Shown here: in pieces, positions 24,995 to 49,081 of the stretch
Layout of the letters: every line of letters starts with the position of its first letter
How positions within the stretch are numbered: position 1 is the first letter of the stretch
Source of the DNA: Pseudomonadota bacterium
GTDB lineage: Bacteria > Myxococcota_A > UBA796 > GCA-2862545
Length of the DNA: 64,000 bases
Assembly (NCBI GenBank): GCA_023954855.1
Contig: JAGSGY010000020.1
Span: 1-64,000, forward strand
Direction: 5' to 3'
Notes under the pieces: model-generated
The model's input: the letters and a program-made list of their open reading frames with translations, nothing else
Database searches by the model: none
What the model was told of the DNA's origin: nothing
Translations under genes and position numbers: made by a program

Positions 24995-25942
24995 ATGTCT
25001 GTCTCATCATCCCGCCAGCTCCTCATCACGGGCGGCGCCGGCTTCATCGGATCCCACACCGCCAGGGCCGCACGCTCGGCGGGGTGGGCCGTCCGCATCC
25101 TCGACAACTTGAGTACGGGCAGCCTAGACGCCCTGGACAGCCTGGACGTCGACTTTCATCGCGGGGACATTCGGTCAGACCGCGACGTCGACCGAGCCAT
25201 GAAGGGCGTGACCCATGTCGTTCATCTGGCCGCGCGCATCAGCGTCCCCGAGTCATGCGAGGACCCCGTCGGCTACGACCAAGTCAACGTTGCCGGCACC
25301 GTCCGCGTCATGCAGGCCGCCCGCCTAGCCGGATGCACCGCGATGGTGTTTGCCTCCTCGGCCGCCGTCTACGGGAGCGACCCGAAGGTGCCGAAGACCG
25401 TCACGGACCGCCCTCAACCCGAGAGTCCATACGCAAGCCAGAAGCTCGCCAACGAGGCCTATGCGAACGCCTTCGCGTCGATCAGTCCGCTGCGGACCAT
25501 CGGGCTCCGATACTTCAACGTGTTTGGTCCAGGTCAAGACCCGAATGGCCCCTACGGAGCGGTGATTCCGAGCTTTGTGCAAGCCGCTGTGCAGGGCCGC
25601 GACCTGACCGTGCATGGCGACGGACTACAGACCCGCGACTTCGTGTCTGTTCACGATGTGGCACAGGCCAACATCGCCGCATTGCAGGGTCCCTCAGGGG
25701 TCTACAACGTCGGAACCGGGCACGGCCTCAGCGTCAAGGCGCTCGCGGACCTGGTCCTCTCCGAGGTTCAGTCCTCCTCCAAACTCATCCACGGCCCCGA
25801 GAGGCTCGGCGACGTGCGCCACTCCCTCTCGGACATTCAACACACGACGGCCGCGCTGGACTGGCTCCCTGCCCAGGACTTCAATCGGGCACTCACCGAG
25901 ACCATCCGGTACTTCCGCCAGCGCTCAGAGCGGAAGGGCTGA
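24995..25942 (+). CDS. NAD-dependent nucleotide-sugar epimerase/dehydratase
   Basis: 315 residues, extended SDR family. The NAD-binding GGAGFIGS lies at residues 13-20. The catalytic Ser is in FASSAAVYG, with Tyr146 and Lys150 in PYASQK. GLRYFNVFGPGQDPNGPY and FVSVHDVAQAN are typical of UDP-sugar 4-epimerases of the GalE/WbpP type. It probably makes a nucleotide-sugar precursor for the polysaccharide assembled by the genes to the right. The substrate (UDP-Glc, UDP-GlcNAc or another) cannot be fixed. It is the leftmost gene of the locus, and its 3' end overlaps the convergent heparinase-like gene by 18 bases. Confidence 0.88.
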   Translation: MSVSSSRQLLITGGAGFIGSHTARAARSAGWAVRILDNLSTGSLDALDSLDVDFHRGDIRSDRDVDRAMKGVTHVVHLAARISVPESCEDPVGYDQVNVAGTVRVMQAARLAGCTAMVFASSAAVYGSDPKVPKTVTDRPQPESPYASQKLANEAYANAFASISPLRTIGLRYFNVFGPGQDPNGPYGAVIPSFVQAAVQGRDLTVHGDGLQTRDFVSVHDVAQANIAALQGPSGVYNVGTGHGLSVKALADLVLSEVQSSSKLIHGPERLGDVRHSLSDIQHTTAALDWLPAQDFNRALTETIRYFRQRSERKG

Positions 25943-33452: not shown

Positions 33453-34649
33453 GTGACAGCATCCTCCAATGAAGCCCCCCTTCGCGTTCTGCACGTCTTA
33501 CCGAGTCTCATCCACGGCGGCGCTGAGACGGTTTGTGCAGACCTCGCCATCGGCTGTCGGGGCCCAGATCTCGGCACGACCATCGCGATCTCGCGGACCG
33601 CCTCTGAGGTCGAAAGGGTCGTCCGCCGGCGGTGGGGCTCCGAAGCGGCTCAACGCGTCACGACTGATCTGCCTCTCGAGGCACGTCTGCGCAGCGAGGG
33701 CGTTCCGCTCGTGTACCTCCACAAACGCACCCCCATCGACGCCGCCTTCTCCCTGCTGCGCACCGTTCGACGACTGCGACCCGACGTGGTCCACACCCAC
33801 CTACACAGCATCGTGTTTGCGGCCCCCGTCACGCGATTCCTGGGCATTCCGCACTGCCACACGGTCCACACCACAGCCCTCGAGGAAGCCGGCAGCGCAG
33901 CCCGCGTACGGATGCGCCGCCGGGCCTTTCGGCGAGTCCACCCCATCAGTATCTCAGAGGCTGTCGCGAAGTCCGTCCATGACGTGTACGGCCTACAGAG
34001 CCCCGTCATTCGCAACGCGGTCGCCCTCGACCGCTTCGACACGACCCAGTCCGCCGGTGCCGAGTGGAGAGAGCGTGAAGGAATCCCCGCAGACGCCGTG
34101 GTGGTCCTTGCGGTAGGCCGGCTTCGGGCCGTGAAGAACCCGACGGGAATCCTCGGAGCGTTCCAGAGCGTTGCAAAGGACCACCCGAACGCCCACCTGA
34201 TCTTCATCGGAGACGGCGACCTCGAAGAACGTCTCGCGGATCAGCGACGGACGTTCGGGCTCGCCAAGCGCGTCCACTTCCTCGGCACGCGCACCGACGT
34301 TCCCGAAGCGCTTGCGGCCGCAGACATCTTTGTCCAAAACTCACTTTATGAAGGGCTCGGGATCGCCGCCGTGGAGGCCATGGCGAGCGGCTTGCCCGTC
34401 ATCGCCACAGCGGTCGGCGGCCTGGTCGAGGTGGTCTCGGATGACGAAACGGGGACGCTGATTCCCAGTCGCTCGCAGGCTGCGCTCGCCGACGCACTGA
34501 CCGCATACATCACCGATCCTGCTCTCCGAGCTCGGCATGGATCCGCAGGACGTGTGCGTGCAAGGTCCCGACACGGCCTCACCGAAGCCACCGATGGCTA
34601 CATCCGGGTCTACAAGGCGCTCGCCGAACGCCGGCCGCTCATAGAATAG
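33453..34649 (+). CDS. GT4-family glycosyltransferase
   Basis: 398 residues, GT-B fold. The N-terminal donor-side loop is LPSLIHGGAETVCADLA. The C-terminal half has VVLAVGRLRAVKNPTG and the EX7E-type motif EGLGIAAVEAMASGLPV. No membrane helix, so probably a cytosolic or peripheral enzyme adding one sugar to the lipid-linked repeat unit. The GTG start at 33453 follows GAGG. The 156 bases between it and the divergent BY-kinase gene must hold promoters for both, but I saw no clear -35/-10 pair. Confidence 0.88.
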   Translation: MTASSNEAPLRVLHVLPSLIHGGAETVCADLAIGCRGPDLGTTIAISRTASEVERVVRRRWGSEAAQRVTTDLPLEARLRSEGVPLVYLHKRTPIDAAFSLLRTVRRLRPDVVHTHLHSIVFAAPVTRFLGIPHCHTVHTTALEEAGSAARVRMRRRAFRRVHPISISEAVAKSVHDVYGLQSPVIRNAVALDRFDTTQSAGAEWREREGIPADAVVVLAVGRLRAVKNPTGILGAFQSVAKDHPNAHLIFIGDGDLEERLADQRRTFGLAKRVHFLGTRTDVPEALAAADIFVQNSLYEGLGIAAVEAMASGLPVIATAVGGLVEVVSDDETGTLIPSRSQAALADALTAYITDPALRARHGSAGRVRARSRHGLTEATDGYIRVYKALAERRPLIE

Positions 34650-34728: not shown

Positions 34729-36054
34729 ATGAAGGTGGACCAGATCGGTGCTTGGTTGCGAGCACAGCCCGTCGTTCCGAGCGTCGCGCTCCTCCTGGCC
34801 TGGGTGGTGTTCGGCGTCGCAAACGTCGCGGTACACCTGCTCTCGGACCGCATGGGCTTTCACTATGAGACCGCGGTCTACCTCGGCCTAAGCGTGTGGA
34901 GGCCTGAACCTCACGCCCTAGGGCTGCTCATCGGTCCCCTCGTCGTCGCGCTGTTGATCACCGCCCTTCACCACGCGCCGCGCACGCCTGCCACCGCCAC
35001 CGCACTAGGTGGTGCCTTGCTGGTCGCCGGAAACCTGATCCAAGGCGTTCCAGCCTTCCTCAAGCCGATTACCGGGCCACGACAGTATGGTGAAGACAGC
35101 CCGGCATGGACCGAAGCCCTCGAGTGGCTCGCCAAGTTCAACGAACAGCAGCCGACACTCGGCCTGCACGCCCGCACGCATCCACCTTTCGCGACACTCG
35201 CACACACCGTCTTCGAAGCCCCCTTCGACGTGGGTCCATGGGGCGTCGTCGTGGCGTTCACGCTTGCCGGCGTGGCACTCGTTCCGCTTTGCTACGCACT
35301 GGCCCGGGCGGTAGGCGCCACACGCAGTGCCGCGTGGCACACCGCCTTGCTCGCCGCCGCAGTTCCTGCGGCAAACGTGTACGCGGTGGTGAGCGTCGAT
35401 GCCGTCGTCGCCATGCTCAGCACCGTAGCCGTCTTGGGCCTGGCTTATGCAAGGCGGGACCGTCTCGTCCTCGGGGTCATCTTGTTCGCACTCGGAGCCC
35501 TCGGCGCCAACTTGTTGAGCTTCGGAGGAACCTTCCTTCTCGCGCTAGCCGCGGGACTCGCACTGTGGGACGCCGCAAGCCGCCGCCACTTCGGTGCACT
35601 GGCCTGCATCGCCACAGGCGTGACGCTCGTCGCGATCACCATCGCAACCCTTCGAGCCGGGTTCGGGTACGACCACCTACTCGCCTTTCAAACCGCATCT
35701 GCGCTCGAGAATCCCGACGGAATCTACTTCGTCGCCGATCCCCTCAACTACGTCGCGACGCGGCTGGAGGGCGTGATCGAGCTCCTCTTGTGGCTCGGCA
35801 TGGCCTCCGCGTGGCTCTTCCGGCCGATCAGGGGCCGGTGGACTGCAGAGTCGACAGTGGCCATCGCGACGATCGCGTTGATGCTGATCAGCGGGGCGTA
35901 TCGAACCTCGGAGACCGCACGCGCGATGCTGTTCATGGTCCCGATTCTCTTGTTGCCGCTGCGGCACCTCGACGATGATGCGTTCGCCGGAACCATCCTA
36001 CTTTGCGCGATGCAGGCGATGATCTTCCAGACCATTGGTGACTCTCTCTGGTAG
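34729..36054 (+). CDS. polytopic membrane protein, possible GT-C glycosyltransferase
   Basis: 441 residues, about eleven to twelve membrane helices. The first large periplasmic loop (residues about 100-150) contains ARTHPPFATL, resembling the HPP loop of GT-C type sugar transferases that use polyprenyl-phosphate sugars. A second loop near residue 325 has YFVADPLNYVATRLEG. No exact family is recognised. It is downstream of the GT4 gene on the same strand (about 80 bases), so probably co-transcribed, and is a plausible side-chain glycosyltransferase. An unrelated transporter-like role cannot be excluded. Confidence 0.7.
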   Translation: MKVDQIGAWLRAQPVVPSVALLLAWVVFGVANVAVHLLSDRMGFHYETAVYLGLSVWRPEPHALGLLIGPLVVALLITALHHAPRTPATATALGGALLVAGNLIQGVPAFLKPITGPRQYGEDSPAWTEALEWLAKFNEQQPTLGLHARTHPPFATLAHTVFEAPFDVGPWGVVVAFTLAGVALVPLCYALARAVGATRSAAWHTALLAAAVPAANVYAVVSVDAVVAMLSTVAVLGLAYARRDRLVLGVILFALGALGANLLSFGGTFLLALAAGLALWDAASRRHFGALACIATGVTLVAITIATLRAGFGYDHLLAFQTASALENPDGIYFVADPLNYVATRLEGVIELLLWLGMASAWLFRPIRGRWTAESTVAIATIALMLISGAYRTSETARAMLFMVPILLLPLRHLDDDAFAGTILLCAMQAMIFQTIGDSLW

Positions 36055-36080: not shown

Positions 36081-37475
36081 CTAGGCCCGCCTGAGGTTCC
36101 GTACGTCACTTCTGTCGAGCGCACCCGTTCCAAGAGCCATGACGAGGTAGGCCGCCGCCCCACAAAGGACGCGGAGGAGCACGTGCTGTCCGCTCATCCA
36201 GCCGACGACCCACACGAGCGGAATCAACGAGATGGAGGCGCGGAGAAGTGTGCCGCCGAAGTTCACACCGCGCACACGAGGACGCACGGCGAGGCCGTAG
36301 AGAAGCACGAGAAACAGCTCGCTAAACAGGGTCGTCGCCGCCGCGCCCATCACGCCCCATGTCGGCACGAGAAGAAAGTTCAGAGCGAGGTTGGTCGCCG
36401 CGACAAGGCCGATGGCCTTCGCCCTCAACGGCTGGAGCCCCAGTGCCGTCAGTGTCAGGCCAAGCGCATGGTTGATGTAGCGAAATGGCAGAAGCGGCAG
36501 CATCAACATGAAGGGCCGTGCCGACGCCGCGAAGGGTTCCCCAAAGACGAACACAAGCAGCGGCTCAGCCACGAGCATGCCCCCCACCGCAATGGGGAGG
36601 GAGACCACGAGGTGCAGGCGCACGCCGAGTCCAAGCAGCCCCCCCACGCCGTCGGGGTTGCCCTGCTGCGCGGCCATCACCGGGTGTAGGACGCGGTTCA
36701 CCACGAAGCCCACGATGACGAGGTTCGCGACGGGGACCGCAGCGACTCCGTACACCGCCACCGCTACATCGCCGTGGAAGTAGGCCAACACCAACACATC
36801 CGCCGCCAGGTACGCGCTGGCGAACAGACCATCAATGCCGAAGGGAATGCACTCCTTCCCTAGTCGCACCGCTTCTGTATGCGGAGCGTTCCAGGGTGCC
36901 CGCAGTTCGATGAGTCGACTCACCGACCTCCAGAGAATGAGGACTGCAATCAGCGTCCAACCCGCGCGAATCCAGTGAACTCCCAGCGCGTTGGCCCCCA
37001 GCATGAGAGCGATGGCCACCGAGCCGAGCTCCCCGAGCTTCCACGTGAGCACCGCGGGCAGCTGATGCTGCATCTTGCGCAGCCCCTGAACCGCACCCTG
37101 CAGCACCGAGAACGACGTGTAGAACACCAGTGCGACGCAGGCCGCAAGCGCAATCTTCACGACGCTGGGTCGGCCGTCTACGGTGGCCGCATAGCTGATC
37201 AAGAGCAGCGAAGTAGGGACCGCGAGCATGCCCACGAGGCGCAGGGCAGCTCCCACCACCTGTCCGCCCGATGCAGGGTCCTGAGCGACCTTCTGGGTCG
37301 TCAGGAGGTTGACGCGGAGCCCGCTGAAGACGGCCGCAATGGTCACCATGCTCAGCACAGTCTGATACGCGCCGTACTCGTCGATCGGCAGCGCACGCGG
37401 CAGCATCACGTGCAGAGCAAGGCCAGCGAGAGCGAGCGTGGCCTGCATGAGGCCTTGGGACGTCACATTGGTCAA
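36081..37475 (-). CDS. Wzx-type polysaccharide flippase
   Basis: 464 residues with about fourteen membrane helices, the MOP superfamily flippase layout (GLMQATLALAGLALHVMLPR, EYGAYQTVLSMVTIAAVFSG). It would move undecaprenyl-diphosphate-linked repeat units across the inner membrane. I chose the TTG at 37475. The upstream frame is antisense to another gene, GGGAG lies just before the TTG, and the TTG overlaps the TGA of the preceding gene. That coupling fits the tight spacing of the three-gene unit sulfotransferase, GINT1-like, flippase. Confidence 0.85.
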   Translation of the reverse strand: MTNVTSQGLMQATLALAGLALHVMLPRALPIDEYGAYQTVLSMVTIAAVFSGLRVNLLTTQKVAQDPASGGQVVGAALRLVGMLAVPTSLLLISYAATVDGRPSVVKIALAACVALVFYTSFSVLQGAVQGLRKMQHQLPAVLTWKLGELGSVAIALMLGANALGVHWIRAGWTLIAVLILWRSVSRLIELRAPWNAPHTEAVRLGKECIPFGIDGLFASAYLAADVLVLAYFHGDVAVAVYGVAAVPVANLVIVGFVVNRVLHPVMAAQQGNPDGVGGLLGLGVRLHLVVSLPIAVGGMLVAEPLLVFVFGEPFAASARPFMLMLPLLPFRYINHALGLTLTALGLQPLRAKAIGLVAATNLALNFLLVPTWGVMGAAATTLFSELFLVLLYGLAVRPRVRGVNFGGTLLRASISLIPLVWVVGWMSGQHVLLRVLCGAAAYLVMALGTGALDRSDVRNLRRA

Positions 37476-38896
37476 CGCTCTCCCTGTCCCATCTGAAGCC
37501 CCTCGAGGTCGAGAGCCCAGAGGTCCCCGTGGCGATTGAGCGTGTGAATGCAGTTGGCACCAAAGCGGGTCGCGTCGATGCGCATCCGGTCCCGGTCCCG
37601 ATAGGGCACCATCGATTCGACTTCCTGAATCACCACGGCCTCGCCGTACCGCGCCGCGCAGTCTTGAGCGACGCGAACGACCGTGCCATCCGCTTCGGTC
37701 CACACACTCCCCGCGGGTCTTGAACGACGCACGTCAACCCGTACCGGATTCTGCGGGTGTGGACGCCAGGGACCTTCGAAGCTGTCGGACGAATACAGCA
37801 CAAGCCCATCGCTCGGGTTTCCATCATCGACCAGGGTGGCCCACATCCACCACGCGTCGCGTCCCCGATACACCGTCGCGTCGGCGAGCCTCCCATCGAC
37901 CAGCAAGACCCCTTCTGGGTCCCATTGATCCGGGAACTGGAGGCACCGGTGCGCCCGCACCTCTCCGCGTTCCGCACACTCGGGGATCATCCACACCCGT
38001 CCGTCATCCTCGATGATCTGCGGGTAAGAAAGATGGTGGGGCCCCTCGAGAACCACTCCAAGCGACTCCCATCGCTCGGCATCATGGACCCGGCAGGCCA
38101 AGATCTTCCCGCGTCCTCCGTGCAATGCCTCTTCAAGAAAGATGACTTTGTCGCCCTCAAACTCAAAGGGAAAAGGGTCAGCCCAGAGACGATCGGGAGG
38201 AGGGACCAGGTGCGTCAGGCGCTCCGCTGTGGGTTCGCTCCCGCCAAGCTGATAGGCCACGCTCCAGCGATGGCTGCTGTAGCGAGGTCGGAACACCGCC
38301 TTCACTTCCCTAAGCGTCGACGCCACCCCCTCGAGTCGACCCGCCCCGACGCTCGCGGACCCCATTCGCGGCGACGCCGCCTTTAGGATCGTCCGAGCGG
38401 CCACCGTCGCCCAGCGCACGGCCGTCTCGTCGACCGTTCGCGAAAACAGCTGTGGGTCGCGACGCGTCCACAGTTCCTCGACCACACGCGGCATGCCGTC
38501 CAAGCGCCACAGGCAACTGCGCACCACGGAGGCGTTCGACGCATCGGGACCTGGGAAAACAAACGGGGCTTCCGAAGACCCGAAAGCCCACAGCTCTGCG
38601 CCCTCGGCCACGGGTGCGTGGTTCGCGCACACGACCGTCGCCGCGCGAATTGGCACGGCATCGTAGGCCCGACCGCCCAGGTGTCGCGCCGGAACGAAGC
38701 TTCCCACACCACTCCCGGGAAACACGGCTCTCTCGAGTCGCTGGGCCAGATGCGCTCGCAAACCACGACGGCTCTTTCGTTCAACCCAGCCAAGGACTTC
38801 GACCTCGGATTCTTTCAGAAGGCCAGACAGCACGACCATCCACTGTGGGACCCCCCTCGGATCCACCGCAAAGACCACCGGCCCCACCGTGCTCAT
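37472..38896 (-). CDS. GINT1-like putative sugar transferase with beta-propeller domain
   Basis: 474 residues from the ATG at 38896, which overlaps the sulfotransferase stop by ATGA and has GGGGA upstream. An ATG at 38911 is the alternative. Residues 1-170 resemble a formyltransferase-like alpha/beta domain. Residues about 215-470 match the five-bladed propeller seen in glucosamine inositolphosphorylceramide transferase 1 N-terminal relatives (RLWADPFPFEFEGDKVIFLE, LSYPQIIEDDGRVWMIPE, GSVWTEADGTVVRVAQD). Such proteins occur in bacterial exopolysaccharide loci, and their reaction is not settled. Cytosolic modification of a nucleotide-sugar or lipid-linked sugar is an inference. Confidence 0.7.
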   Translation of the reverse strand: MSTVGPVVFAVDPRGVPQWMVVLSGLLKESEVEVLGWVERKSRRGLRAHLAQRLERAVFPGSGVGSFVPARHLGGRAYDAVPIRAATVVCANHAPVAEGAELWAFGSSEAPFVFPGPDASNASVVRSCLWRLDGMPRVVEELWTRRDPQLFSRTVDETAVRWATVAARTILKAASPRMGSASVGAGRLEGVASTLREVKAVFRPRYSSHRWSVAYQLGGSEPTAERLTHLVPPPDRLWADPFPFEFEGDKVIFLEEALHGGRGKILACRVHDAERWESLGVVLEGPHHLSYPQIIEDDGRVWMIPECAERGEVRAHRCLQFPDQWDPEGVLLVDGRLADATVYRGRDAWWMWATLVDDGNPSDGLVLYSSDSFEGPWRPHPQNPVRVDVRRSRPAGSVWTEADGTVVRVAQDCAARYGEAVVIQEVESMVPYRDRDRMRIDATRFGANCIHTLNRHGDLWALDLEGLQMGQGER

Positions 38897-39798
38897 GGGT
38901 TCCCCAGCCATGGGACGGGCTGTTCGAGAAGCTCACCGAGTCGGGCGTTCTCGTCGCGAAAGTGATCGTCCAGAAGCTCTTGAACGCCCTCAGGAAGGCC
39001 CTGGTACGCTCCGGACTCGCCAAAGCGCTTCGCCGGGGGCACGCTCACTTCCGGCCTGCCGACGAAGTCCAAGAACCTTCTCATCTCGCCGAGCGGATCC
39101 GCAAAATACGCCTCGCTGAAGATGATGCACAGCTGCTCGCGCGGGTAGTGACGCAACCAGTTCTCGAGCTGTGTCGCATAGTGGCCCCGACGCAGGTAGG
39201 ACGAATCCGGCCGGGCACCCGTCGGGTCCTCAAAGAGGACGGCGGCCCCGTTTCGGAGAAGGGCTGCCTCGTGCTCAAAGGCGTCGAGCATGCCCCGAGA
39301 CTCTTCATTTCGCCTCTTGTTGTGGTGATAGTGCGAGACCGCCCGGGCGACCGGGTTGCGAAGAAGCACAAGCAGACGCGCGTCGGGAACCAGCGCCTTT
39401 GCCCTCGCAGGGGCGTGCAAGCTGGGAAAGTTGGTGAGCGTTCCATCGCCATGGAGACGCCCGGGTGGCGGATCGGCCTCGTAGAAGAAGGAGCGATACC
39501 AGTCCACCGAGCGATTCGAGTACTGATCGAAGTACAGAATCTCCTTCGGAGGGCCGGGGTTCATGACGGGAGAGGACTTCAGGTGCTCCCAGAAAGAAGA
39601 CGTCCCGCCCTTCATCACCCCCAGCATCAGAAAGTCGGGCAGGGGCCCGAGCTGGCCCCGTCTGACGCGACGGCGAGCCAAGAAGTCGAGCTCCGCCCGA
39701 ATGACCAAACGCTTCCACCGGTCCGGGGTGCGCCTTGCAATCTCGCTGCGTAACGTCACGAGCGGTGGCTCCCAGGTTTCGACCCTGCTGCTAACCAC
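38893..39798 (-). CDS. PAPS-dependent sulfotransferase (first)
   Basis: 301 residues. The 5'-phosphosulfate loop is visible as GVMKGGTSS (Lys63 to Ser68) and the 3'-phosphate site as LLVLLRNPVARAVSHYHHN (Arg147, Ser155), both in the spacing of heparan/carbohydrate sulfotransferases. No signal or membrane anchor. It would transfer sulfate from PAPS to a sugar hydroxyl or amine of the repeat unit in the cytoplasm. The start is GTG at 39798. It leads the unit containing the GINT1-like gene and the flippase, which suggests sulfation before export. PAPS synthesis genes are not in the window. Confidence 0.88.
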   Translation of the reverse strand: MVSSRVETWEPPLVTLRSEIARRTPDRWKRLVIRAELDFLARRRVRRGQLGPLPDFLMLGVMKGGTSSFWEHLKSSPVMNPGPPKEILYFDQYSNRSVDWYRSFFYEADPPPGRLHGDGTLTNFPSLHAPARAKALVPDARLLVLLRNPVARAVSHYHHNKRRNEESRGMLDAFEHEAALLRNGAAVLFEDPTGARPDSSYLRRGHYATQLENWLRHYPREQLCIIFSEAYFADPLGEMRRFLDFVGRPEVSVPPAKRFGESGAYQGLPEGVQELLDDHFRDENARLGELLEQPVPWLGNP

Positions 39799-39977
39799 TC
39801 AGACCCACCTTCTCAACGGCCAAGCCGCTTCGGGAAGGCCTCGCCACCCTCCAATGTCGACTCGCCTCCGCGCGCCGACAACACGGATGAGACGCCGGGA
39901 TTGCCAGGTTCGCAAGCGAGGAGAACACCGAGCGGCCCTGCGAACGACCTGCTATGTTGTGTGCACACGAGGTGGAC

Positions 39978-40913
39978 ATGATCACTGTTCTTCTTCTTCT
40001 CGTCCCCGCTATGGCGGGTGATGTCGATCGAGTACCCGAGGACTTCCGGACGATTCAGGCGGCCGTAGACCGTGGCACAGCACCCGTCATCGAAGTCGGT
40101 CCCGGCGAGTGGGCCGGGGCGACCGTGGATCGAAAGGTCTCGATCCAAGGCAAAGATGCCATCATCACCTCGGGCGTGAAGAGGCCTGGCGCACGGGTCG
40201 CGTTCCCCCTCGCGCAGAAGGCCACCGGCTCGGAGATCGTCGGGTTCACCTTCGACTGCACCTCGTCGAGCCTGGACCTCGGCGTCTACGCCTCCCAACA
40301 GCGGATGGGCGGGGCACCCGACGAGATCAACGTGTCGGACAACCGCTTCGTCGGCTGTGTCCAAGGCGTGACCAACACCGGAAGCAAAGTCTCGGAGTGC
40401 GAGTCCGCCAGCGTCGACGGCGGTCAGTACTGGACCATTCAGTCCAACGAATTCGCGGGATTCCGCACCCGGACCAGCTCCAAGAGCGCAGCGGGGGGTA
40501 TCGGCGTGTACCTCTTCAACGTCGCGGACAACGACGTGTTCAACAACACGTTCACGGGTGGGGTCGACGACACGCCTAGCTTCACCACCAGCGGAATCCT
40601 GCTTGCTGGATGCCAGGACTGCGTCATCGCCGAGAACGACTTCGCCGTCTCTGGCGGCGCCTACTACTGGGCTGCCGTCTCGAACCTTGGCTACTACCAA
40701 GACGGTGCCGCCCCCTCCGAGCGGGTGAGCATTCTCGCAAACGACGCCAGCCGCGACGCCAAGCCTCATCGCGGCATGAGCTTCCGCAGTATCGACAGCT
40801 TCGATGTCTCCTTGGAAGACAATCAAGGGGACGTCGACGTCGACCACAGTTGGTGTGGCGATAAGGTCGAGACCCGAACCGCCGTCAACGCCCGTCCAAA
40901 CGCGCGTCGGTAG
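39978..40913 (+). CDS. secreted right-handed beta-helix protein
   Basis: 311 residues from the ATG at 39978, chosen for GAGGTGGAC directly upstream and the signal peptide that follows (TVLLLLVPAMAGD). The mature part has the repeating short strands and Asn/Gly turns of parallel beta-helix proteins (NVSDNRFVGC, TIQSNEFAGF, NVADNDVFNNTF, VIAENDFAV). In polysaccharide loci these are often lyases, epimerases or hydrolases acting in the periplasm, such as AlgG- or AlgX-like proteins. I see no catalytic signature. It is divergent from the first sulfotransferase and followed by the methyltransferase and export genes. Confidence 0.8.
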   Translation: MITVLLLLVPAMAGDVDRVPEDFRTIQAAVDRGTAPVIEVGPGEWAGATVDRKVSIQGKDAIITSGVKRPGARVAFPLAQKATGSEIVGFTFDCTSSSLDLGVYASQQRMGGAPDEINVSDNRFVGCVQGVTNTGSKVSECESASVDGGQYWTIQSNEFAGFRTRTSSKSAAGGIGVYLFNVADNDVFNNTFTGGVDDTPSFTTSGILLAGCQDCVIAENDFAVSGGAYYWAAVSNLGYYQDGAAPSERVSILANDASRDAKPHRGMSFRSIDSFDVSLEDNQGDVDVDHSWCGDKVETRTAVNARPNARR

Positions 40914-41017
40914 CGGCTCAACAAGCCCTCACGCCCCTCCCCGCCACGGTCTCTGACGGACTGGCCGGTAACCTACGCCGGACCGCGGGCGAGCTACGCA
41001 TCGAAGGAAGTCATCCG

Positions 41018-41965
41018 ATGAGTCAGTCCGCCGGACCTCCGGTCGAGGTCACTGCTGGGTCGAAAGGCGAATGGATCGTGCATCTGAGTGATGGGCCGGT
41101 GCGCACACACCTTCCCCCCAAGCTCATCCACGCCTTGGCGAAGGCCAAAGGTCCCGCCATGTTGGGCTATGAGCTGGAGCGAGCCGGGAACAAGGGCCCA
41201 GTGATGCGCATGCTCTCGACAGGGCTGGGGGCGTACGCGACCGCGGCCGACCTCCAGGGCAAGCGCGTTCTCGACTTCGGATGCGGAACGGGTACCTCCA
41301 CGGTAGCGATGGCCCTCACCTATCCAGAGGCCTCCTTTGTCGGCGTCGAGCTCGAGGAGCGCTGGGTGGAAGCCGCGCGGGTCCGCGCAGAGGTCTTCTC
41401 AGCCGCCAATGCCGAGTTTGCTGTGTCTCCTAATGGCGCAAGCCTCCCCGACGTCGGGCGCTTCGACTTCGTGATGCTCTCCGCCGTCTGGGAGCACCTA
41501 CTGCCCGGCGAGCGGCCTGGCATCGCGCGTGCTCTGTGGGACTCACTCCGACCGGGAGGCATCATCTTCCTGAACCAGACACCGCACCGGTGGTGGCCTC
41601 TGGAGTCGCACACCACAGGGCTCCCCCTCATCAACTACCTTCCCAAGGGCCTGGCCCATCGGTACGCGAAACTCTCCCCTCGCCTTCGCGGCGACGAGAG
41701 CTGGTCCGAGCTGCTTCGATACGGCGTTCGTGGCGGCACGGTGCGCGAGATCCTGGGTATGTTCTCATCGCCTGACGCCCCAGCAACTCTGGCCGCTCCT
41801 CGTGAAGACGTCGGGGACCGCCTTGACCTCTGGCTCGACACATCGTCGGGGCTGCGTATGCCATGGGCCAAACGCGCCACCTGGGCCGGACTGAAAGCGG
41901 TGAAGGCCCTGACCGGCCGGCAGGTCGCACCGGTCCTTACCATCGCCATTCAAAAGCAATCCTAG
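41018..41965 (+). CDS. class I SAM-dependent methyltransferase
   Basis: 315 residues. The SAM-binding motif I is VLDFGCGTGTS at residues about 86-96, followed by the acidic strand end VGVELEERW and the motif around FDFVMLSAVWEHLLPGERP. It has the size and layout of methyltransferases that cap or decorate polysaccharides. The C-terminal 100 residues are less typical. It probably methylates a sugar hydroxyl of the repeat unit. It lies about 100 bases after the beta-helix gene and 80 before the export gene, all on the plus strand. Confidence 0.85.
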   Translation: MSQSAGPPVEVTAGSKGEWIVHLSDGPVRTHLPPKLIHALAKAKGPAMLGYELERAGNKGPVMRMLSTGLGAYATAADLQGKRVLDFGCGTGTSTVAMALTYPEASFVGVELEERWVEAARVRAEVFSAANAEFAVSPNGASLPDVGRFDFVMLSAVWEHLLPGERPGIARALWDSLRPGGIIFLNQTPHRWWPLESHTTGLPLINYLPKGLAHRYAKLSPRLRGDESWSELLRYGVRGGTVREILGMFSSPDAPATLAAPREDVGDRLDLWLDTSSGLRMPWAKRATWAGLKAVKALTGRQVAPVLTIAIQKQS

Positions 41966-42045
41966 GTCGATCCCCTGAGCTCCCGACGTTCGCATCCAAC
42001 AAAGCCCAATCGGCACGTCGCCATAAACCGCGATATGTGCAGGAA

Positions 42046-42825
42046 ATGAGTGACCGCATCGTTTCAAAACTCCTCTGGCTCATGGTGCTGTCCGCCACTC
42101 CGGCTCTCGCGAGCGAGTACCGGCTGGGCGCAGGCGATACGATCGACATCGAGATCTACGGTCTCAGCGACATGGGACGAAGCACGCAAATCCCGTCGTC
42201 CTGCGAGGTCGACATCCAGCTGATTGGGCCCATGAAGGCCTGTGGTCTCACGACCATCGAGTTCGCAGAGACGCTACGAGCCGCTCTGGCCACTGGGTAC
42301 TTGAACAACCCTCACGTACTCGTAGACATCACCCAGTACGGCAGCCAGACCATCGATGTGATTGGCCAGGTCAAGAAGCCCGGGCTTCAGGCGCTCACCG
42401 GCCCCACAACCCTGACCGACGCCCTCGCGTCCGCAGGCGGCCCGTCCTCTCCATCCGTGCTCGAAGGCACGGTTCTTACAGCCGACGGTCGCAAGGTGGA
42501 GTTCTACCTCCCCGACCTCCGTCTCGGCGAGAGTATCTGGCTATCCGGTGGCGATGTCGTCCAGCTCCGAGAGCCCCTGCAGGTCCACGTCAGTGGACAA
42601 GTCGCCAAGCCGGGACCGGTGGCCTTTCGCGATGGCCTCACGGTGACCGAGGCCCTGTCCATGACGGGTGGCCCTACCGAGTTCGCCGCCTTGCGCCGAA
42701 CCCTAGTGGTCCGCGCCGATGGCTCGAAGATTCGCCTCAACGTGCGCCGCATCGCAGAAGGCCGCGACACGGACATCTTGCTCAGGGCAGATGATCGCAT
42801 CGTCATCAAGCAGTCGATCTTCTAG
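42046..42825 (+). CDS. polysaccharide export protein (Wza-like)
   Basis: 259 residues from the ATG at 42046, chosen because the signal peptide follows (LLWLMVLSATPALA) and AGGA precedes it closely. The polysaccharide export sequence YRLGAGDTIDIEIYGLSDMG comes next, then two SLBB-type segments (IDVIGQVKKPGLQAL and VHVSGQVAKPGPVAF). There is no lipobox Cys, so unlike E. coli Wza it is not obviously lipidated, and it lacks the C-terminal outer-membrane helix. It would form the periplasmic conduit working with the BY-kinase/co-polymerase at 31-33 kb. A separate outer-membrane porin may be needed. Confidence 0.88.
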   Translation: MSDRIVSKLLWLMVLSATPALASEYRLGAGDTIDIEIYGLSDMGRSTQIPSSCEVDIQLIGPMKACGLTTIEFAETLRAALATGYLNNPHVLVDITQYGSQTIDVIGQVKKPGLQALTGPTTLTDALASAGGPSSPSVLEGTVLTADGRKVEFYLPDLRLGESIWLSGGDVVQLREPLQVHVSGQVAKPGPVAFRDGLTVTEALSMTGGPTEFAALRRTLVVRADGSKIRLNVRRIAEGRDTDILLRADDRIVIKQSIF

Positions 42826-42837
42826 CAGTAGAAAACG

Positions 42838-43803
42838 CTAGCGAGCGGCGTAGCCAAGCTCTCGCGCCATGGGCCCGCAGATTCTCTCGATGATCGCAGC
42901 CTCTTCGGCCGTCTCCTCCGCCAGATAGCGCTCGTTCACCTCTGGCCGCATTGGATACCAGCGGTCCCGCATGCGGCTACCAAGCGGTAGACGATGGTGA
43001 GCGGCAGGCACCATATCGGGATCGAACTCAAGGCCGAGCAGGCCACACAGACGGGCCATTTCGACCTCGGGCTGGGCCAACAGGTCTTCGAACTTCAGGG
43101 TATGAAAGCGCTCGTACCCGCGCGCGTCCTCGATCGCGCAGGACATTGAGTTTGCCCAGTGCTGAGCCGCCATCTCAAGGCGCTCATGCCGGGTGAAATG
43201 CGAGGGGAGATCGTCCCTGTATTCGGCAAGCCGAAGGCTGCGGAGGCTGCTCGCATGGGGGTCGCGACCGATGAGTACGAAGTGCGCGTCGTCAAAGATG
43301 GACCGCAGCAGCCCCAACCGCACCGTAAAGGTCTGGGACTTGTCGATGAACCTCGGCTCTGCGACGCGGCGCCCATGCATACGGATGAGCCATCCGACGA
43401 TGCCTCGAAACGCTTTGCGGAGCTCGGGGCTCGCATCGGCATCCGTCTGCCGGTATTGCGGCAGCAGTCGGTCCGTCGCGTAGCTGGAGCCTCGCGCGTT
43501 CGGGAAGAACTCGTCGGGAGGCACAGCACCGGCCAACCCCTTGAACGCTGCCGGAAGAATCGGATGCAGCACGTTCTGAAGCTCGTCAGCGCCCGCCCAG
43601 TAGCGGTGGTTTCCCGTCACGCAGACCACGTTTCGATTCCGGCGGAGCATGCGCGAAGCGAGCGTAAGTCCACCTCCCTGCACGCCCAACAAGAAGATGG
43701 GGGCCACGGGGGACGGGCGCGGCGGCCCCAACAACCTCGGAAGGTGGGCAAGCCAGGCTTGCCTGCGCAGTGCGTAGACCAAGGAGTTCAGTCGCTCGTT
43801 CAT
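42838..43803 (-). CDS. sulfotransferase-family protein (second)
   Basis: 321 residues from the ATG at 43803. A GTG 12 codons upstream is possible but less likely. The phosphosulfate-loop region reads FLLGVQGGGLTLASRML, with Gln-Gly-Gly in place of the usual Pro-x-Ser-Gly. The 3'-phosphate-site strand is HFVLIGRDPHASSLRSLRLAEY in two blocks. The C-terminal half has FHTLKFEDLLAQPEVEMARL, a conserved sulfotransferase element. The two sulfotransferases of the locus differ widely in sequence, so they probably act on different positions. It lies downstream of the O-antigen-ligase/TPR gene and converges on the export gene. Confidence 0.82.
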   Translation of the reverse strand: MNERLNSLVYALRRQAWLAHLPRLLGPPRPSPVAPIFLLGVQGGGLTLASRMLRRNRNVVCVTGNHRYWAGADELQNVLHPILPAAFKGLAGAVPPDEFFPNARGSSYATDRLLPQYRQTDADASPELRKAFRGIVGWLIRMHGRRVAEPRFIDKSQTFTVRLGLLRSIFDDAHFVLIGRDPHASSLRSLRLAEYRDDLPSHFTRHERLEMAAQHWANSMSCAIEDARGYERFHTLKFEDLLAQPEVEMARLCGLLGLEFDPDMVPAAHHRLPLGSRMRDRWYPMRPEVNERYLAEETAEEAAIIERICGPMARELGYAAR

Positions 43804-43902
43804 GTCCCGGCCGTAGCGTGTTGGGACACGCCCCACCACCCGTTAGTCGCGCTGGTAGATCTCAACGCGAGACTCCTTCTCGAGTCCGCCGTCCCGCTGT
43901 GC

Positions 43903-46173
43903 CTAGGGCTTGGATGCCGAGCAACTGACACACTCGGCCAGACATCGGCGCCGCAAGTCCGCCACCCGGTCAGCCAGAGCCTTGTCCCAGAGCGTCTCAT
44001 CCAGATCGTGGACACAGCCCGCGGGGTCACCCGCCTTCAAGCGCAGTTCCGCCACGACGAGCAGGCCCGCAGGACTCAGGCGCCCCGCAGAGGCAAAGGT
44101 CTGCGCCTGCACCAGCGCCTCCTCCGGCCCTTCCGCTGCCGCGACCACCAAGAGAAGCGGACCCGTCAGGTCGTGTCCAAAACGGCTGCCCTCCTGGTAG
44201 AGCGCCACCGCCCGATCATGCTGCTCGCGCTGGGAATACAGACGCCCCAGCGTCAATCGAACGCCGAGATCATCTGGGCGCTCCTCGAGCCGATCGAGCG
44301 CCGCACGTTCCGCCTCGTCCAATCTTCCGACGGCCAGGAGCCACCTGATCCGGCCGCCCCAGACCGCGTAGCGGGGCTCTCGGTCCGCCGCCCTCTCATA
44401 CAGTTCGCCAGCCCTTCCGATTTGACCGGTTCGCATGAGGTGGTCGCCTCTATACAAACTCCAGTACGGGGAAGCGCCTTCCAAGCTGTCCTCCCACCAC
44501 GCCTCGTCGGGACGGAGACGCTCGACCTCACCGAAGACCCACGCCCCGCCGGCGGTCTCGGCAGGCCAATGGCTGAGAGCAACGCGATAGCTCTCCAGCG
44601 ACTCTTCTCGCCTTCCGGAACGCTGACGCGCGCGGGCAATCAACACATGCGCCCGGTACTCGTAGGGCTCACGTTCGAGCGCCAGCAGGGCCGTCTTCTC
44701 AGCCTCGGCGACGCTTCCTGCACGCATGAGAACACCAGCAGCATTGAGAAGAGTCGCTCCGGACTCGGGATGTCGGGCCCGGAGCCGGAGCGCGGCCCGC
44801 GTCGCAAGCTCGTGGTTCCCGTCTTCGAGCGCCCGCCAGGCCCTTGCGAACCCCGGCTCTGGCCTCCAGGGAGCCAACCATCGCACCTGCGCCGCGGCAG
44901 CTTGCGCCTGCTCGCCCGTCTTCTGTTCCCAGACGACTGCGACCGCGCGATCGACGGCCGCGGCGTGGCCAAGCAGCAGGCCACTCGCAACGACCGAGCC
45001 GAGCGTCACCGCGACGACGACGCGATTGTGCGTCTTCACTCGCCCGGGAAGGTCGACGCGCACGAGACCAAGCCGCAGTCCGCCCACGGCGGCCACCGAA
45101 ACCAGCACGAGGGGCACGTGGAGGGGGAAGTCTCCGAGTGCGTGAAGCCCAACACCCAGAAGGCCGAGGTCGAGGGCCCACCCGGACCCCGACGACTTCG
45201 GCCAATGCCGCCAAAGCCACCAGACGACCACGCCCAGGACCACCGACCCGACCAGGCCCGTATCGACCACCCACTGCAACAAATCCGAGTGCGCCGTTCG
45301 ATAGCTCCTAAATCCTGGGAACGTACGAAATGGGGCATACGCCCACTGAAAGCTACCCACACCCCAGCCGGTGAGCGGCTGGGCAAGGAACATCGCTGGA
45401 AGGTCCGCCCACTGGTCAAGGCGACGCTCGGGCGAACTCTCAGCCCAATGGGGGTAGAGGCGGTAGCCGAGGTTCACAACGGCCAGCCCGACGCCCGCAA
45501 ACGCGGCCATCGACGCAAGACGAAGGGGCCACCACAGGCGTCGACTCAGGGCAAAGGCAAGGACGCCCAGTGCGGCCAGATTCGCTCCGGGGTTGTGCAC
45601 CAACAGCCAGCCCACCACCATCACGCTGAGTCCGGCCAACGCCAATACGGCGCCTGCTGACCGGCGTTTCCACAGCTTGTGGGTCCAGAACACAGACACC
45701 GGGGCCGTGAGCAGCCAGAAGCTCGCGAGGTGGTTTGGATTGCCAAACGGAGCGAAGAACGGAAGCTGAGGCTCCCGCATCTCGATGAAGCCGAGCACGG
45801 CGGTCTGATCGGTGAGCGCGTGGACGAGCGCAAAGACCGAGATGCTCACTGCGATGCCAAAGATCACCAGTCCGGAGCGGTCCTGTTCACGACGCGACAG
45901 CACCGAAGACACCGACGCAAACCCGAGCGCGAGGCAGCCCACTGCGAGGGCGTAGAGTCCCTCCCAGGGCACCAGCGCCGCGGTCATCCAGGCACTCCCA
46001 TGTCGCACAGACGCCGCACCTGGGGCCAGGGCAGTACCCACAGACGACGGCATGGGGAGCAACCCAATTCCAGCGGAGGCGAGCAGGGCGACGATGACCG
46101 CCACCGGCACCCGGGCCCGTGCGAGGCGCCTCGGATGCCCTCCGATCGCAACCACCACCGCCGCGCCGAGCAC
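43903..46173 (-). CDS. O-antigen ligase-like membrane protein with C-terminal TPR domain
   Basis: 756 residues from the GTG at 46173. About ten membrane helices occupy the first 420 residues, with the Wzy_C/ligase loop (FGNPNHLASFWLL, LTGWGVGSFQW, AHSDLLQWVVDTGLVGS). A cytoplasmic or periplasmic TPR region follows (AEAEKTALLALEREPYEYRA, RAVALYQEGSRFG). The same frame remains open to a TAG at 46308-46306 and encodes another hydrophobic helix there (LLVLAWIVLALGGAG), preceded by GGAGG. The true N-terminus is therefore probably about 40 residues longer, yet no ATG, GTG or TTG exists in that stretch. It is the second polymerase/ligase of the locus, a candidate for ligating the finished chain. Confidence 0.8.
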   Translation of the reverse strand: MLGAAVVVAIGGHPRRLARARVPVAVIVALLASAGIGLLPMPSSVGTALAPGAASVRHGSAWMTAALVPWEGLYALAVGCLALGFASVSSVLSRREQDRSGLVIFGIAVSISVFALVHALTDQTAVLGFIEMREPQLPFFAPFGNPNHLASFWLLTAPVSVFWTHKLWKRRSAGAVLALAGLSVMVVGWLLVHNPGANLAALGVLAFALSRRLWWPLRLASMAAFAGVGLAVVNLGYRLYPHWAESSPERRLDQWADLPAMFLAQPLTGWGVGSFQWAYAPFRTFPGFRSYRTAHSDLLQWVVDTGLVGSVVLGVVVWWLWRHWPKSSGSGWALDLGLLGVGLHALGDFPLHVPLVLVSVAAVGGLRLGLVRVDLPGRVKTHNRVVVAVTLGSVVASGLLLGHAAAVDRAVAVVWEQKTGEQAQAAAAQVRWLAPWRPEPGFARAWRALEDGNHELATRAALRLRARHPESGATLLNAAGVLMRAGSVAEAEKTALLALEREPYEYRAHVLIARARQRSGRREESLESYRVALSHWPAETAGGAWVFGEVERLRPDEAWWEDSLEGASPYWSLYRGDHLMRTGQIGRAGELYERAADREPRYAVWGGRIRWLLAVGRLDEAERAALDRLEERPDDLGVRLTLGRLYSQREQHDRAVALYQEGSRFGHDLTGPLLLVVAAAEGPEEALVQAQTFASAGRLSPAGLLVVAELRLKAGDPAGCVHDLDETLWDKALADRVADLRRRCLAECVSCSASKP

Positions 46174-46419: not shown

Positions 46420-47784
46420 CTAGCTCCCTGGCCGAACGAGTACTGTTTGCAGGGTCTTGAGCAGAATGAGGCCATACAGCGCCGGCGTCATGTTCTGGAT
46501 TGCGTAGAGCTCGTACTCGAGCTTCACCCTCGAGTCGTCCACCGTTGCGCCGTACCCATAGGACACTTGCGCCCAGCCCGTCACGCCTGGCTTCACGGCA
46601 AAACGTAGCTCGTAGTATGGAATCGCCTCGCGAAGCTCGGAGACAAAGGGCTCGCGCTCGGGACGAGGTCCCACCATCGACATGTCACCGCGCAGGACGT
46701 TGAAGAACTGGGGCAGCTCGTCGATCCGAGTACGCCGCAGGAAGCGACCCGCAGGGGTCACTCGAGGGTCGCCCGGTCCCTGCGACCACACCGGCCCAGA
46801 GCTGGACTCTGCATCTACCGACATCGTGCGAATCTTATAGATCTGGTACGGCTTCTCGTACTGACCGATGCGCTCCTGAGAATAAAATATGGGCCCTGGC
46901 GATGTGAGCCGGACCGCGAGCATGCCGCCGAGAAGCAGTGGCAGTGACAGCACCAGTCCGGTGAGAGCGATGGCAACATCAAGGGTCCGCGCGACCGTTC
47001 GCGCAACGCCAGCCCGCTCCTCAAAGCCCGGGCTGTACACCATGAACGGTGCCTCGATGCTGTGAGACGGCAACCGACCGGTCCGGCTAGCGATGAAGCT
47101 GCCAATGTCCACGACGTGTACGCCTTGCGCCTTGAGTGAGATCAAGCGCTCGTACCACCCCTTCGGAAGAGGTGAGCGCGCGGCCACGACCACCTGAGAG
47201 ACGCCTTTGGAAACCAACGCGGGCACCCGCTCTAGCTCGTCAAGCCCCACATTCTCTGCCACAAAACGCGTGTCCGCCAACAGATCGGGCCGACCCGAAA
47301 TCAGCGCCCGAAGCGGCTCGGCTTCGGCCCCGCCCCCCACAATGGCCGTGAGGCGAGACGGCGCACGCGGGCCGACCAAGGCGATGGTCGCCCGCCAGAG
47401 GGTCAATAGGCCGGCGAATCCAAGAAAGGACCCCAGCGCAACACCACGCCCCCAAGCCCAGAACGGCGCCGCGTATGAGACCGCGAAGAGGCTGACGAAC
47501 GCCGCTCCGATCGCCAACCAGAGCCGAACCAGCTGCCGAGGCTGACGAAAGTCGTGCCGCGCATCGTAGCCGTCGGCAAGGTACAAGAACAACAGGTGAA
47601 CCAACACGAAGAAGGTGGTGGCACCCGTCGTGGACTCCAGGATTTCTGCAATTGCGTACGTCTCTCGCCCGGAGAGCGAGAATCGCAAAAAGTGACCCAA
47701 GTAGGCCGCAAGAAGCAGGCAGAGCGTATCGCCAGCGAGTAGAACCAGCTGACGCACACCAATAGGAATGCCTGAGATGACCAT
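46420..47784 (-). CDS. polyprenyl-phosphate hexose-1-phosphate transferase (initiating)
   Basis: 454 residues from the ATG at 47784. A TTG three codons upstream is possible but badly spaced from GGAG. Four N-terminal membrane helices, a CoA-binding-like central domain (IVGGGAEAEPLRALI) and the catalytic bacterial sugar transferase domain can be seen: YKIRTM, RRTRIDELPQFFNVLRGD, MSMVGPRPEREPF, KPGVTGWAQVSYGYG. The enzyme starts repeat-unit synthesis by transferring a sugar-1-phosphate to undecaprenyl phosphate (WcaJ/WbaP type). Its 5' end overlaps the divergent GT4 gene, so its promoter lies inside that gene. Confidence 0.92.
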   Translation of the reverse strand: MVISGIPIGVRQLVLLAGDTLCLLLAAYLGHFLRFSLSGRETYAIAEILESTTGATTFFVLVHLLFLYLADGYDARHDFRQPRQLVRLWLAIGAAFVSLFAVSYAAPFWAWGRGVALGSFLGFAGLLTLWRATIALVGPRAPSRLTAIVGGGAEAEPLRALISGRPDLLADTRFVAENVGLDELERVPALVSKGVSQVVVAARSPLPKGWYERLISLKAQGVHVVDIGSFIASRTGRLPSHSIEAPFMVYSPGFEERAGVARTVARTLDVAIALTGLVLSLPLLLGGMLAVRLTSPGPIFYSQERIGQYEKPYQIYKIRTMSVDAESSSGPVWSQGPGDPRVTPAGRFLRRTRIDELPQFFNVLRGDMSMVGPRPEREPFVSELREAIPYYELRFAVKPGVTGWAQVSYGYGATVDDSRVKLEYELYAIQNMTPALYGLILLKTLQTVLVRPGS

Positions 47785-49081
47785 CGGGTCCAAACTCCAA
47801 CGTTTTCGACTGCCTGGACGGCGGCGTCGCCATGAACGAACGGCCGATGCCCCTTTACGCGTCGTGGTCGTAACGCCCTACTACCCTCCTGAGCCAGGGG
47901 CCGCGGCCACAAGGCTCTCGGAGCTCACGGCACACTGGCAGAGCATGGGAGCACAGGTGCACGTGCTGGCGGGCATGCCCTGCTACCCCGACGGCGTCAT
48001 CCCAGCCGAGTACCGTGGACGAGCCGTGGTCCGCGAGACATTCCGCGGGGTCACGGTGACAAGGGTCGCTGTTCTCGCACTTCCAAACTCAGGAGCGCTC
48101 CAGCGGTTTGCACACCAGGCCTCCTGGTTCGCGAGCACCCTCACTGGCGGTCTCCTGTTGGTGCCCGAAGCAGACGTGGTCGTGGGCTCCTCGCCTCACC
48201 TGTTCGGAGCAGCAACTGCGGCTCTGCTCGCCAGGCGACGTGGCGTGCCCTTCGTACTTGAGCTCAGAGACCTTTGGCCGCGGATCATCTGGCAGACCGG
48301 AGCTGTGCCACGCAACCATCCAGCCATCAAGGCTTTCGAGTGGCTCGAGAAGTGGCTCTACGCTCAGGCGGACGAGCTCGTCGTCGTCACCAAGGAGTTC
48401 CGACGAGAAGTCGCCGAGACGGCCGAAGACCGCACCGCGGAGAGCATCCACCTCATTCCCAACGGGGTGAACTCGTCGCGCTTCGAAGAAAGCATCGACA
48501 TCCGGTCGGCTCGCGAGCGTCTCGGTCTGCCCTCTGACCGTCCCATCGCGCTCTATGCGGGCGTACACGGCATCGCGCAGGGCCTAGAGGTGATCGTCGA
48601 TGCCGCTCGACTCGCACCGGACGTCCACTGGGTCATGCTTGGCAAAGGAACCAAGAAGGCTGATCTCGAGCGTCGCGGTGCTGGAGTGCCGAACTTGTCC
48701 TTCCACGATGCCGTCGGCCCCGAAGAGATGCCTGAAATCTACGGCCTCGCTGACGTGTTGCTCGTGCCCCTGCGGGATGTGCCAAGCCTCCGCTCGACCA
48801 TCCCCAGTAAGATCTTCGAGATCTGGGCAGCCGGTCGGCCGTTCGTACTGAGCGCGGCGGGAGAGGTTGCCGCACTCGCCCTAGAAAGCAACGGGGCCGT
48901 CGTCGTCCCCCCCGAGGACCCTGCCGCACTTGCCGTGGCGGTCGACGAGCTCGCGAGCGACCCGGAGAGGTGTCGCCAACTTGGTGAGTCCGGACGGACT
49001 TTCGTCCGCGCTCGTTTTGAGCGGAAGGCGCTCGCCGCTCGCTACCTCACCCTCCTCAGACAGGCATCGCAGTCCGAGTAG
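47777..49081 (+). CDS. GT4-family glycosyltransferase (second)
   Basis: 434 residues from the ATG at 47777, with AGGA nine bases upstream. An ATG at 47768 is the alternative. The first 25 residues are basic (LPGRRRRHER). The GT-B fold follows, with VVVVTPYYPPEPGAAATRLS, LELRDLWPRIIW, HLIPNGVNSSRF and a C-terminal phosphate loop region (IPSKIFEIWAAGRPFVLSA). It resembles WcaI/FnlB-type transferases and would add the second or a later sugar after the initiating transferase, its divergent neighbour. It is the rightmost gene of the polysaccharide locus. Confidence 0.88.
   Translation: MTIGSKLQRFRLPGRRRRHERTADAPLRVVVVTPYYPPEPGAAATRLSELTAHWQSMGAQVHVLAGMPCYPDGVIPAEYRGRAVVRETFRGVTVTRVAVLALPNSGALQRFAHQASWFASTLTGGLLLVPEADVVVGSSPHLFGAATAALLARRRGVPFVLELRDLWPRIIWQTGAVPRNHPAIKAFEWLEKWLYAQADELVVVTKEFRREVAETAEDRTAESIHLIPNGVNSSRFEESIDIRSARERLGLPSDRPIALYAGVHGIAQGLEVIVDAARLAPDVHWVMLGKGTKKADLERRGAGVPNLSFHDAVGPEEMPEIYGLADVLLVPLRDVPSLRSTIPSKIFEIWAAGRPFVLSAAGEVAALALESNGAVVVPPEDPAALAVAVDELASDPERCRQLGESGRTFVRARFERKALAARYLTLLRQASQSE

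Follow-up and report, generated by a model that had tools for sequence, protein, structure and literature searches.

A strongly conserved subfamily of the sulfotransferase fold with a Gly-Gly-Gly P-loop, found in a Wzx/Wzy-type exopolysaccharide locus

We analysed positions 1 to 64,000 of contig JAGSGY010000020.1 (assembly GCA_023954855.1, Pseudomonadota bacterium; GTDB lineage Myxococcota_A, UBA796, GCA-2862545), a stretch called the window throughout, which comes from a genome of 6.1 Mb in 178 contigs that is 97% complete. It carries a full Wzx/Wzy-type exopolysaccharide locus (~25.0-49.1 kb, genes on both strands) in which, as a preliminary description of the same DNA had proposed, two distinct sulfotransferase-fold proteins, here ST1 and ST2, are found together with heparinase-like and methyltransferase genes. 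Two sulfotransferases in one exopolysaccharide cluster are already known from synechan and from Actinoplanes wps-1; the main find is a family trait of ST2 (42838-43803, minus strand), which, judged from its sequence, belongs to a rare, strongly conserved and distinct subfamily of the sulfotransferase fold. The altered loop GVQGGGLT that had been noticed in ST2 is real and is the hallmark of this subfamily.

ST2 matches PF13469 with 67.2 bits (cut-off 27), in keeping with its assignment to the fold. The ATG at 43803, from which the gene had first been drawn, agrees with the starts of the relatives; GTG codons at 43836 and 43839 are also open, and residue numbers follow the 332-aa form from GTG 43836 (11 lower when counted from ATG 43803). 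A degenerate DNA pattern describing the loop was run over the genome contigs of an 84,980-species set and matched 13 stretches, ten of which encode relatives of ST2, the other three (L048, L053 and L055) being chance matches. The ten relatives are 39-47% identical to ST2 and come from at least six phyla (Woeseia, three Ardenticatenaceae, another Chloroflexi, an Anaerolineales, the culturable Sulfidibacter corallicola, a Planctomycetaceae, a Neomarinimicrobiota and a Parcubacterium). Across all 11 family rows 52 positions are invariant, including Lys166, Asp84, Glu85 and Arg199, which argues for strong purifying selection and therefore for a working protein. Conservation at Gly51, Gln53, Gly54-56, Thr58, Arg62 and Leu64 carries a selection effect, these positions having been fixed or narrowed by the search pattern, and Arg199, Lys166, Asp84, Glu85 and the remaining invariant positions are free of it. 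Chance or decay can be ruled out as the source of the loop, the change being conserved in 11/11 rows from several phyla.

To define what sets the family apart, nine family rows (profile A1) were aligned with 33 ordinary PF13469 relatives drawn from the window's order and the window's own genome, and the comparison was repeated with all 11 rows. Position 54, in the P-loop, is Gly in 11/11 family rows versus Arg in 33/33 ordinary relatives; position 55 is Gly in the family versus Ser in 31/33; and position 199, on the helix that binds the 3'-phosphate (PB), is Arg in 11/11 versus Ser in 32/33 and Thr in 1/33. Lys166 is kept throughout (11/11 and 33/33) and, from the order of the motifs, would be the counterpart of TPST1 Lys159, the second catalytic lysine. 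Passages of the TPST1 account list Arg79, Glu100, Lys159 and Ser286 as catalytic residues and call both motifs conserved in all members (PMC5562738). A HMMER profile alignment lays TPST1 GVPRSGTT over ST2 GVQGGGLT, with Arg79 on Gly54, although the N-terminal stretch by itself scores only 2.3 bits. Asp84 and Glu85, invariant in 11/11 rows, are no more than candidate counterparts of TPST1 Glu100 as catalytic base. As the altered loop characterises the whole family and is accompanied by a second change, at the 3'-phosphate site, it would be too simple to class ST2 as a normal sulfotransferase dependent on 3'-phosphoadenosine 5'-phosphosulfate (PAPS).

The predicted structure agrees with the family assignment. 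An AlphaFold2 model of ST2 built from alignment A1 (pLDDT, the predicted local distance difference score, 84.4; pTM, the predicted template modelling score, 0.86) has CurM, TPST1, STF1 and OLS as its first Foldseek matches, and the best structural matches are sulfotransferases throughout. VIA-align gives a Z score of 17.9 against 4gox (217 aligned residues, 3.0 Å), 17.8 against TPST1 (5wrj; 232 aligned, 3.9 Å) and 17.4 against CurM. The closest solved structures are thus human TPST1/TPST2 and the polyketide synthase sulfotransferases CurM and OLS (Z ~17-18), with which the loop positions align; unlike TPST1, the ST2 family has neither the P-loop Arg (Arg79 in TPST1) nor the Ser of the 3'-phosphate site. 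The 11 family members group together in a tree, set apart by a long stem of 1.39 changes per column; the support of 83/92 is below the level that earns a star. Within it, the members from Woeseia, Planctomycetaceae and Sulfidibacter, which represent three phyla, cluster at 100/100, suggesting that the family has been transferred horizontally.

The family is sparsely distributed. ST2 finds matches in 46/63 genomes of the window's order at E<=1e-3, the best outside its own genome reaching 2.1e-13, and those of them that were aligned carry the ordinary Arg loop; at E<=1e-20 there is a match in at least 1/377 genomes of the window's phylum, namely the window's own. Profile A1 finds at least 4/396 genomes in the class of G379 (three known members and one broken copy), at least 1/246 in the order of G377, 1/130 in that of G383, at least 1/170 in that of G386 and 1/1 in that of G380, in each of these orders the known genome; no family member with an ordinary loop was met in these five taxa at thresholds of 1e-40 or 1e-30. 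A scan of genome contigs with the single ST2 protein returned 28 pattern stretches and no relative. No relative was found on plasmids with ST2 or the L058 relative as query, in phages with the L049 relative as query, or in viral contigs, where the loop DNA pattern matched 0 stretches, L049 three and A1 24. The broken copy (L079; G491:C12, from a genome of the Chloroflexota class) has an N-terminal part that ends near a QGEGVT loop; the middle is absent and the remainder follows after ~1.07 kb, so that the gene is either broken or misassembled.

We compared the genomic neighbourhoods of the ten relatives with those of 20 ordinary PF13469 relatives as controls (tblastn; family 4 glycosyltransferase (GT4) at E<=1e-10, bi-domain oxidoreductase at E<=1e-40), the two sets not being lineage-matched, as the controls come from one order, the window's, and the family loci from many phyla. 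A GT4 gene is present in 7/10 family loci versus 0/20 controls, a bi-domain oxidoreductase in 4/10 versus 0/20 and a priming transferase in 3/10 versus 0/20. Most ST2-family loci are glycan loci, which is consistent with the setting first proposed for the window's divergent sulfotransferases. No ST1 homologue occurs in any of the ten, so ST2-type proteins stand alone. The bi-domain oxidoreductase lies within 10 kb of the ST2-type gene in L080, L081 and L083, where the nearest copies are 47-53% identical to the window's; the Parcubacterium locus (L050) has a more distant copy (~35% identity). Genome-wide, at E<=1e-40, this oxidoreductase is found in 5/10 relatives' genomes, in Sulfidibacter far from the ST2-type gene, and it is absent from 3/3 near relatives of the window's genome examined; a literature search pairing sulfotransferases with "bi-domain-containing oxidoreductase" gave no occurrence among the matches listed. 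Blastp places heparinase-like genes next to the ST2-type gene in both L080 and L083, with a Pfam match for one of them; the stricter tblastn counts L083 only. Four Chloroflexota loci (L082, L084, L086 and L087) share another block, with a conserved neighbour of 279-302 aa directly downstream, an FkbM-type methyltransferase by Pfam in the two scanned, and a family 2 glycosyltransferase, joined in L086 by a type I phosphodiesterase family protein; the members from other phyla have a different, heparinase/bi-domain block.

Adenosine 5'-phosphosulfate (APS) kinase and CysQ-type genes make PAPS and remove its product 3'-phosphoadenosine 5'-phosphate (PAP), respectively. In L050 an APS kinase gene, a CysQ-like phosphatase gene and the ST2 homologue lie in this order on one strand, ~15 bases apart, an arrangement that points to a link between the ST2 family and PAPS. 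The kinase, whose gene is cut by the contig end, matches TIGR00455 with 160 bits (cut-off 138.7), and the best match of the phosphatase is TIGR01331 at 166.8 bits, under the cut-off of 228.8. The three genes (L050:3048-5391) form an apparent operon; a sulfated glycan from a Parcubacterium would be unexpected. The window's genome itself, which the preliminary description had suggested searching for PAPS synthesis genes, has a stand-alone CysC on contig C63 and CysD plus CysN with a partial CysC domain on C85, and by this gene content can make PAPS. For the CysC part fused to CysN (L089:15075-16922) the PF01583 match is split in two and ends before the family does; as a complete stand-alone CysC is present on C63, the kinase joined to CysN may be a degenerate one.

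The reading that we favour, with a probability of roughly 0.58, is that ST2 is a glycan sulfotransferase that uses PAPS through a rewired site and acts on lipid-linked repeat units before Wzx, and that ST1 adds a second sulfate; donor, acceptor, catalytic roles and cellular site are what we infer in this proposal. ST2 would work in the cytoplasm on the lipid-linked glycan before Wzx flips it. Its Gly-Gly-Gly P-loop would cradle the 5'-phosphosulfate by main-chain contacts, Lys166 (the TPST1 Lys159 equivalent) would stabilise the transition state, and the charge lost from the P-loop would be supplied by Arg199 on the 3'-phosphate-binding helix and/or by the invariant Arg62/65/66, with the Asp84-Glu85 pair as candidate base. 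ST1, as a PAPS sulfotransferase, would place its sulfate on the same polymer, whose uronic or related sugars the heparinase-like and bi-domain proteins may modify. The polymer first suggested for the locus, sulfated and with uronic or amino sugars, may be its product. A more tentative idea, to which we give slightly less than even odds, is that the family has relocated an essential positive charge from the P-loop, where Arg has become Gly, to the helix at the 3'-phosphate, where Ser has become Arg; the same fold would then either catalyse sulfuryl transfer in a second way or have taken up a new donor.

Several observations weigh against ST2 being a PAPS-dependent glycan sulfotransferase. In the sections of a 2024 review that define a sulfotransferase, the features named are a Lys/Arg at the 5'-phosphosulfate-binding (PSB) site, a Ser at the PB site and the sheet (PMC11625862), and by that definition ST2 is without two of the three, the PSB Lys/Arg and the PB Ser. 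Arg191, in the 3'-phosphate-binding motif, is Arg in 10/11 rows and Asn in one (L057). The linkage to PAPS genes is seen in one genome only, at a contig end, from an order with one genome in the set. The bi-domain oxidoreductase is absent, at E<=1e-40, from the genomes of the five Chloroflexota members, and the ST2-type gene of Sulfidibacter lies outside any recognisable glycan locus.

The main rival, which we consider unlikely, is that in ST2-type proteins the sulfotransferase fold serves another reaction or donor, such as a phospho-donor or a retinol dehydratase-like elimination or dehydration, leaving the polymer at most singly sulfated. The replacement of both PAPS signature residues together in every family member speaks for such a switch, as does the clade-specific rather than gradual nature of the changes, no ordinary-loop member having been met at the thresholds of 1e-40 or 1e-30; retinol dehydratase, a sulfotransferase-fold enzyme with "inactive cofactor PAP", is among the Foldseek matches of ST2. 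The universal retention of Lys166, a Ser-to-Arg change that keeps or adds positive charge in the phosphate pocket, and the APS kinase and CysQ-like genes adjoining the ST2-type gene in L050 all speak for PAPS instead. Loss of the P-loop Arg/Lys is also the expectation for a dead sulfotransferase, and ST2 might be a non-catalytic pseudoenzyme, for example a glycan-binding scaffold or a regulator of ST1 or the polymerase. This appears improbable, and less likely than another donor or reaction, because many of the 52 positions invariant across phyla lie in active-site motifs (QGGGLT, YW, DE, DKSQ and P.....R) and an ST1 homologue that could assist is absent from all ten loci of the relatives. Least probable of all is that ST1 and ST2 have a lipid or small-molecule substrate and that their place in an exopolysaccharide locus is a coincidence: other sulfotransferase genes do lie outside it, as on C85 beside fatty-acid/polyketide-like genes, and parts of the synechan study mention known bacterial sulfotransferases for which Nod factor or mycobacterial glycolipids serve as substrates (PMC8205485), yet ST1 overlaps the GINT1_N gene, which runs into wzx, ST2 lies between the OPX and Wzy_C genes, and ST2 relatives recur in the glycan loci of other phyla.

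A PAPS-dependent ST2 would matter for how such enzymes are recognised. The 2024 review warns, in the portion consulted here, that bacterial enzymes that sulfate polysaccharides may go unnoticed where consensus motifs are relied on (PMC11625862). The warning becomes testable with a conserved family that has neither the P-loop Lys/Arg nor the 3'-phosphate Ser by which sulfotransferases are recognised and whose genes nevertheless occur in glycan loci and, in one case, next to an APS kinase gene; motif-based definitions would, if the reading is true, call an active family dead. Activity of ST2 would change what counts as a sulfotransferase, extend the range of bacteria expected to produce sulfated glycans to the Chloroflexota, Planctomycetota, Acidobacteriota and Neomarinimicrobiota as well as to a Parcubacterium, and offer a new route to sulfated, glycosaminoglycan-like polymers.

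Sulfated polysaccharides had been called uncommon in bacteria, in agreement with the passages available from Maeda 2021 (PMC8205485). Like the xss cluster for synechan in Synechocystis 6803, as described in those passages, the window has a Wzx/Wzy locus with two sulfotransferases of distinct subfamilies (XssA and XssE in xss); sulfation of synechan was shown chemically (PMC8205485). Unlike xss, for which the same passages name neither, the window's locus has heparinase-like and bi-domain oxidoreductase genes, and no statement on a QGGG loop was found in them. Excerpts on Pontiella describe sulfated glycosaminoglycan-like exopolymers and a putative cluster with a sulfotransferase and methyltransferases, likewise in a non-cyanobacterium (PMC7356697); that polymer was measured as N-sulfated, and the excerpts neither mention "heparinase" nor give a loop type. 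Actinoplanes wps-1, in the text segments at hand, also combines two sulfotransferases of different families and a methyltransferase in one Wzx/Wzy cluster, the families there being Gal/GlcNAc/GalNAc-type and heparan-type and sulfation of the polymer being raised as a possibility only (PMC13390465). Literature searches found no paper combining sulfotransferase with QGGG, most subscription papers lying outside the coverage, none joining sulfotransferase, exopolysaccharide and myxobacteria, and none for catalytic-lysine or pseudoenzyme sulfotransferase terms.

ST1 (38893-39798, minus strand; 301 aa; PF00685 52.1 bits, cut-off 22) bears the canonical pair of motifs ascribed to it, KGGTSS at residue 63 and RNPVARAVS at 147 (RNPxxRxxS), and has the heparan-type features PSB Lys63, PB Arg147..Ser155 and Glu86 in the base segment. 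Its nearest solved structures by phmmer are heparan sulfate 3-O-sulfotransferase 3 (3-OST-3; 4.2e-23) and N-deacetylase/N-sulfotransferase (4.5e-15). It resembles the heparan sulfate 3-O-sulfotransferases (1t8t and others) in the KGGT loop, the R.PV.RA.S motif and the Glu of the PKE/AEP segment, and differs from them in being a bacterial stand-alone protein with a similarity far too low to imply 3-O regiochemistry. By these motifs ST1 is an ordinary PF00685 sulfotransferase.

The heparinase II/III-like protein (25925-27691, minus strand; PF07940 124.2 bits, also PF16889) had been grouped with the genes between ST1 and ST2; it belongs to the same locus but lies outside that segment. Its Asn-His, Tyr-His and His positions, which we take to be catalytic, are invariant in 5/5 aligned relatives. 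No secretion signal was seen by eye, and its model (pLDDT 54.9) is too poor for fold comparison. The Tyr/His theme occurs in heparinase II/III and in dermatan sulfate epimerase 1 according to the sections consulted of PMC8006597; the protein shares the three positions with both and may be a lyase or an epimerase, its resemblance to dermatan sulfate epimerase making a C5-epimerase role possible.

All parts of a Wzx/Wzy-dependent system are in the locus: a priming polyprenyl-phosphate glycosylphosphotransferase (Bac_transf; 46420-47793, minus; TIGR03025 over cut-off), a Wzx-type flippase (36081-37466, minus; PF01943 and PF13440; GTG 37466 start assumed), a Wzy-type polymerase (Wzy_C; 29833-31203, minus), a Wzc-like polysaccharide co-polymerase with a tyrosine-kinase domain (31203-33296, minus; TIGR01007 over cut-off) and an OPX polysaccharide export protein (Poly_export, SLBB; 42046-42825, plus, start approximate). 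They are accompanied by an NAD-dependent sugar-nucleotide epimerase/dehydratase (24995-25942, plus), the bi-domain oxidoreductase (zinc dehydrogenase plus GFO/IDH/MocA; 27696-29825, minus), two GT4 glycosyltransferases (33453-34649 and 47768-49081, both plus), a multi-pass membrane protein with weak PMT_2 similarity below cut-off (34729-36054, plus) and a Wzy_C/O-antigen ligase-type membrane protein with a tetratricopeptide-repeat tail (43903-46173, minus). The class I S-adenosylmethionine-dependent methyltransferase named in the preliminary description is present at 41018-41965 (plus; PF13649 49.8 bits, cut-off 27). So is the gene for its beta-helix protein (39954-40913, plus), a probable right-handed beta-helix whose family call is weak, all Pfam matches being below cut-off. 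Promoter and terminator scans gave nothing above chance level.

The gene for a GINT1_N-domain protein (37472-38911, minus; PF24793) shares 19 bases with the end of the ST1 gene, and the two are likely to be translationally coupled. Further sulfotransferase-family matches in the window's genome lie on contigs C144, C128, C9, C85, C123 and C134. On C85 (L089:4831-17836) fatty-acid/polyketide-like genes accompany a PF13469 sulfotransferase whose loop is the normal HQRSGTT; CysN(C) and CysD lie ~9 kb further on, and from this gene content C85 is possibly a second site of sulfation, directed at a small molecule.

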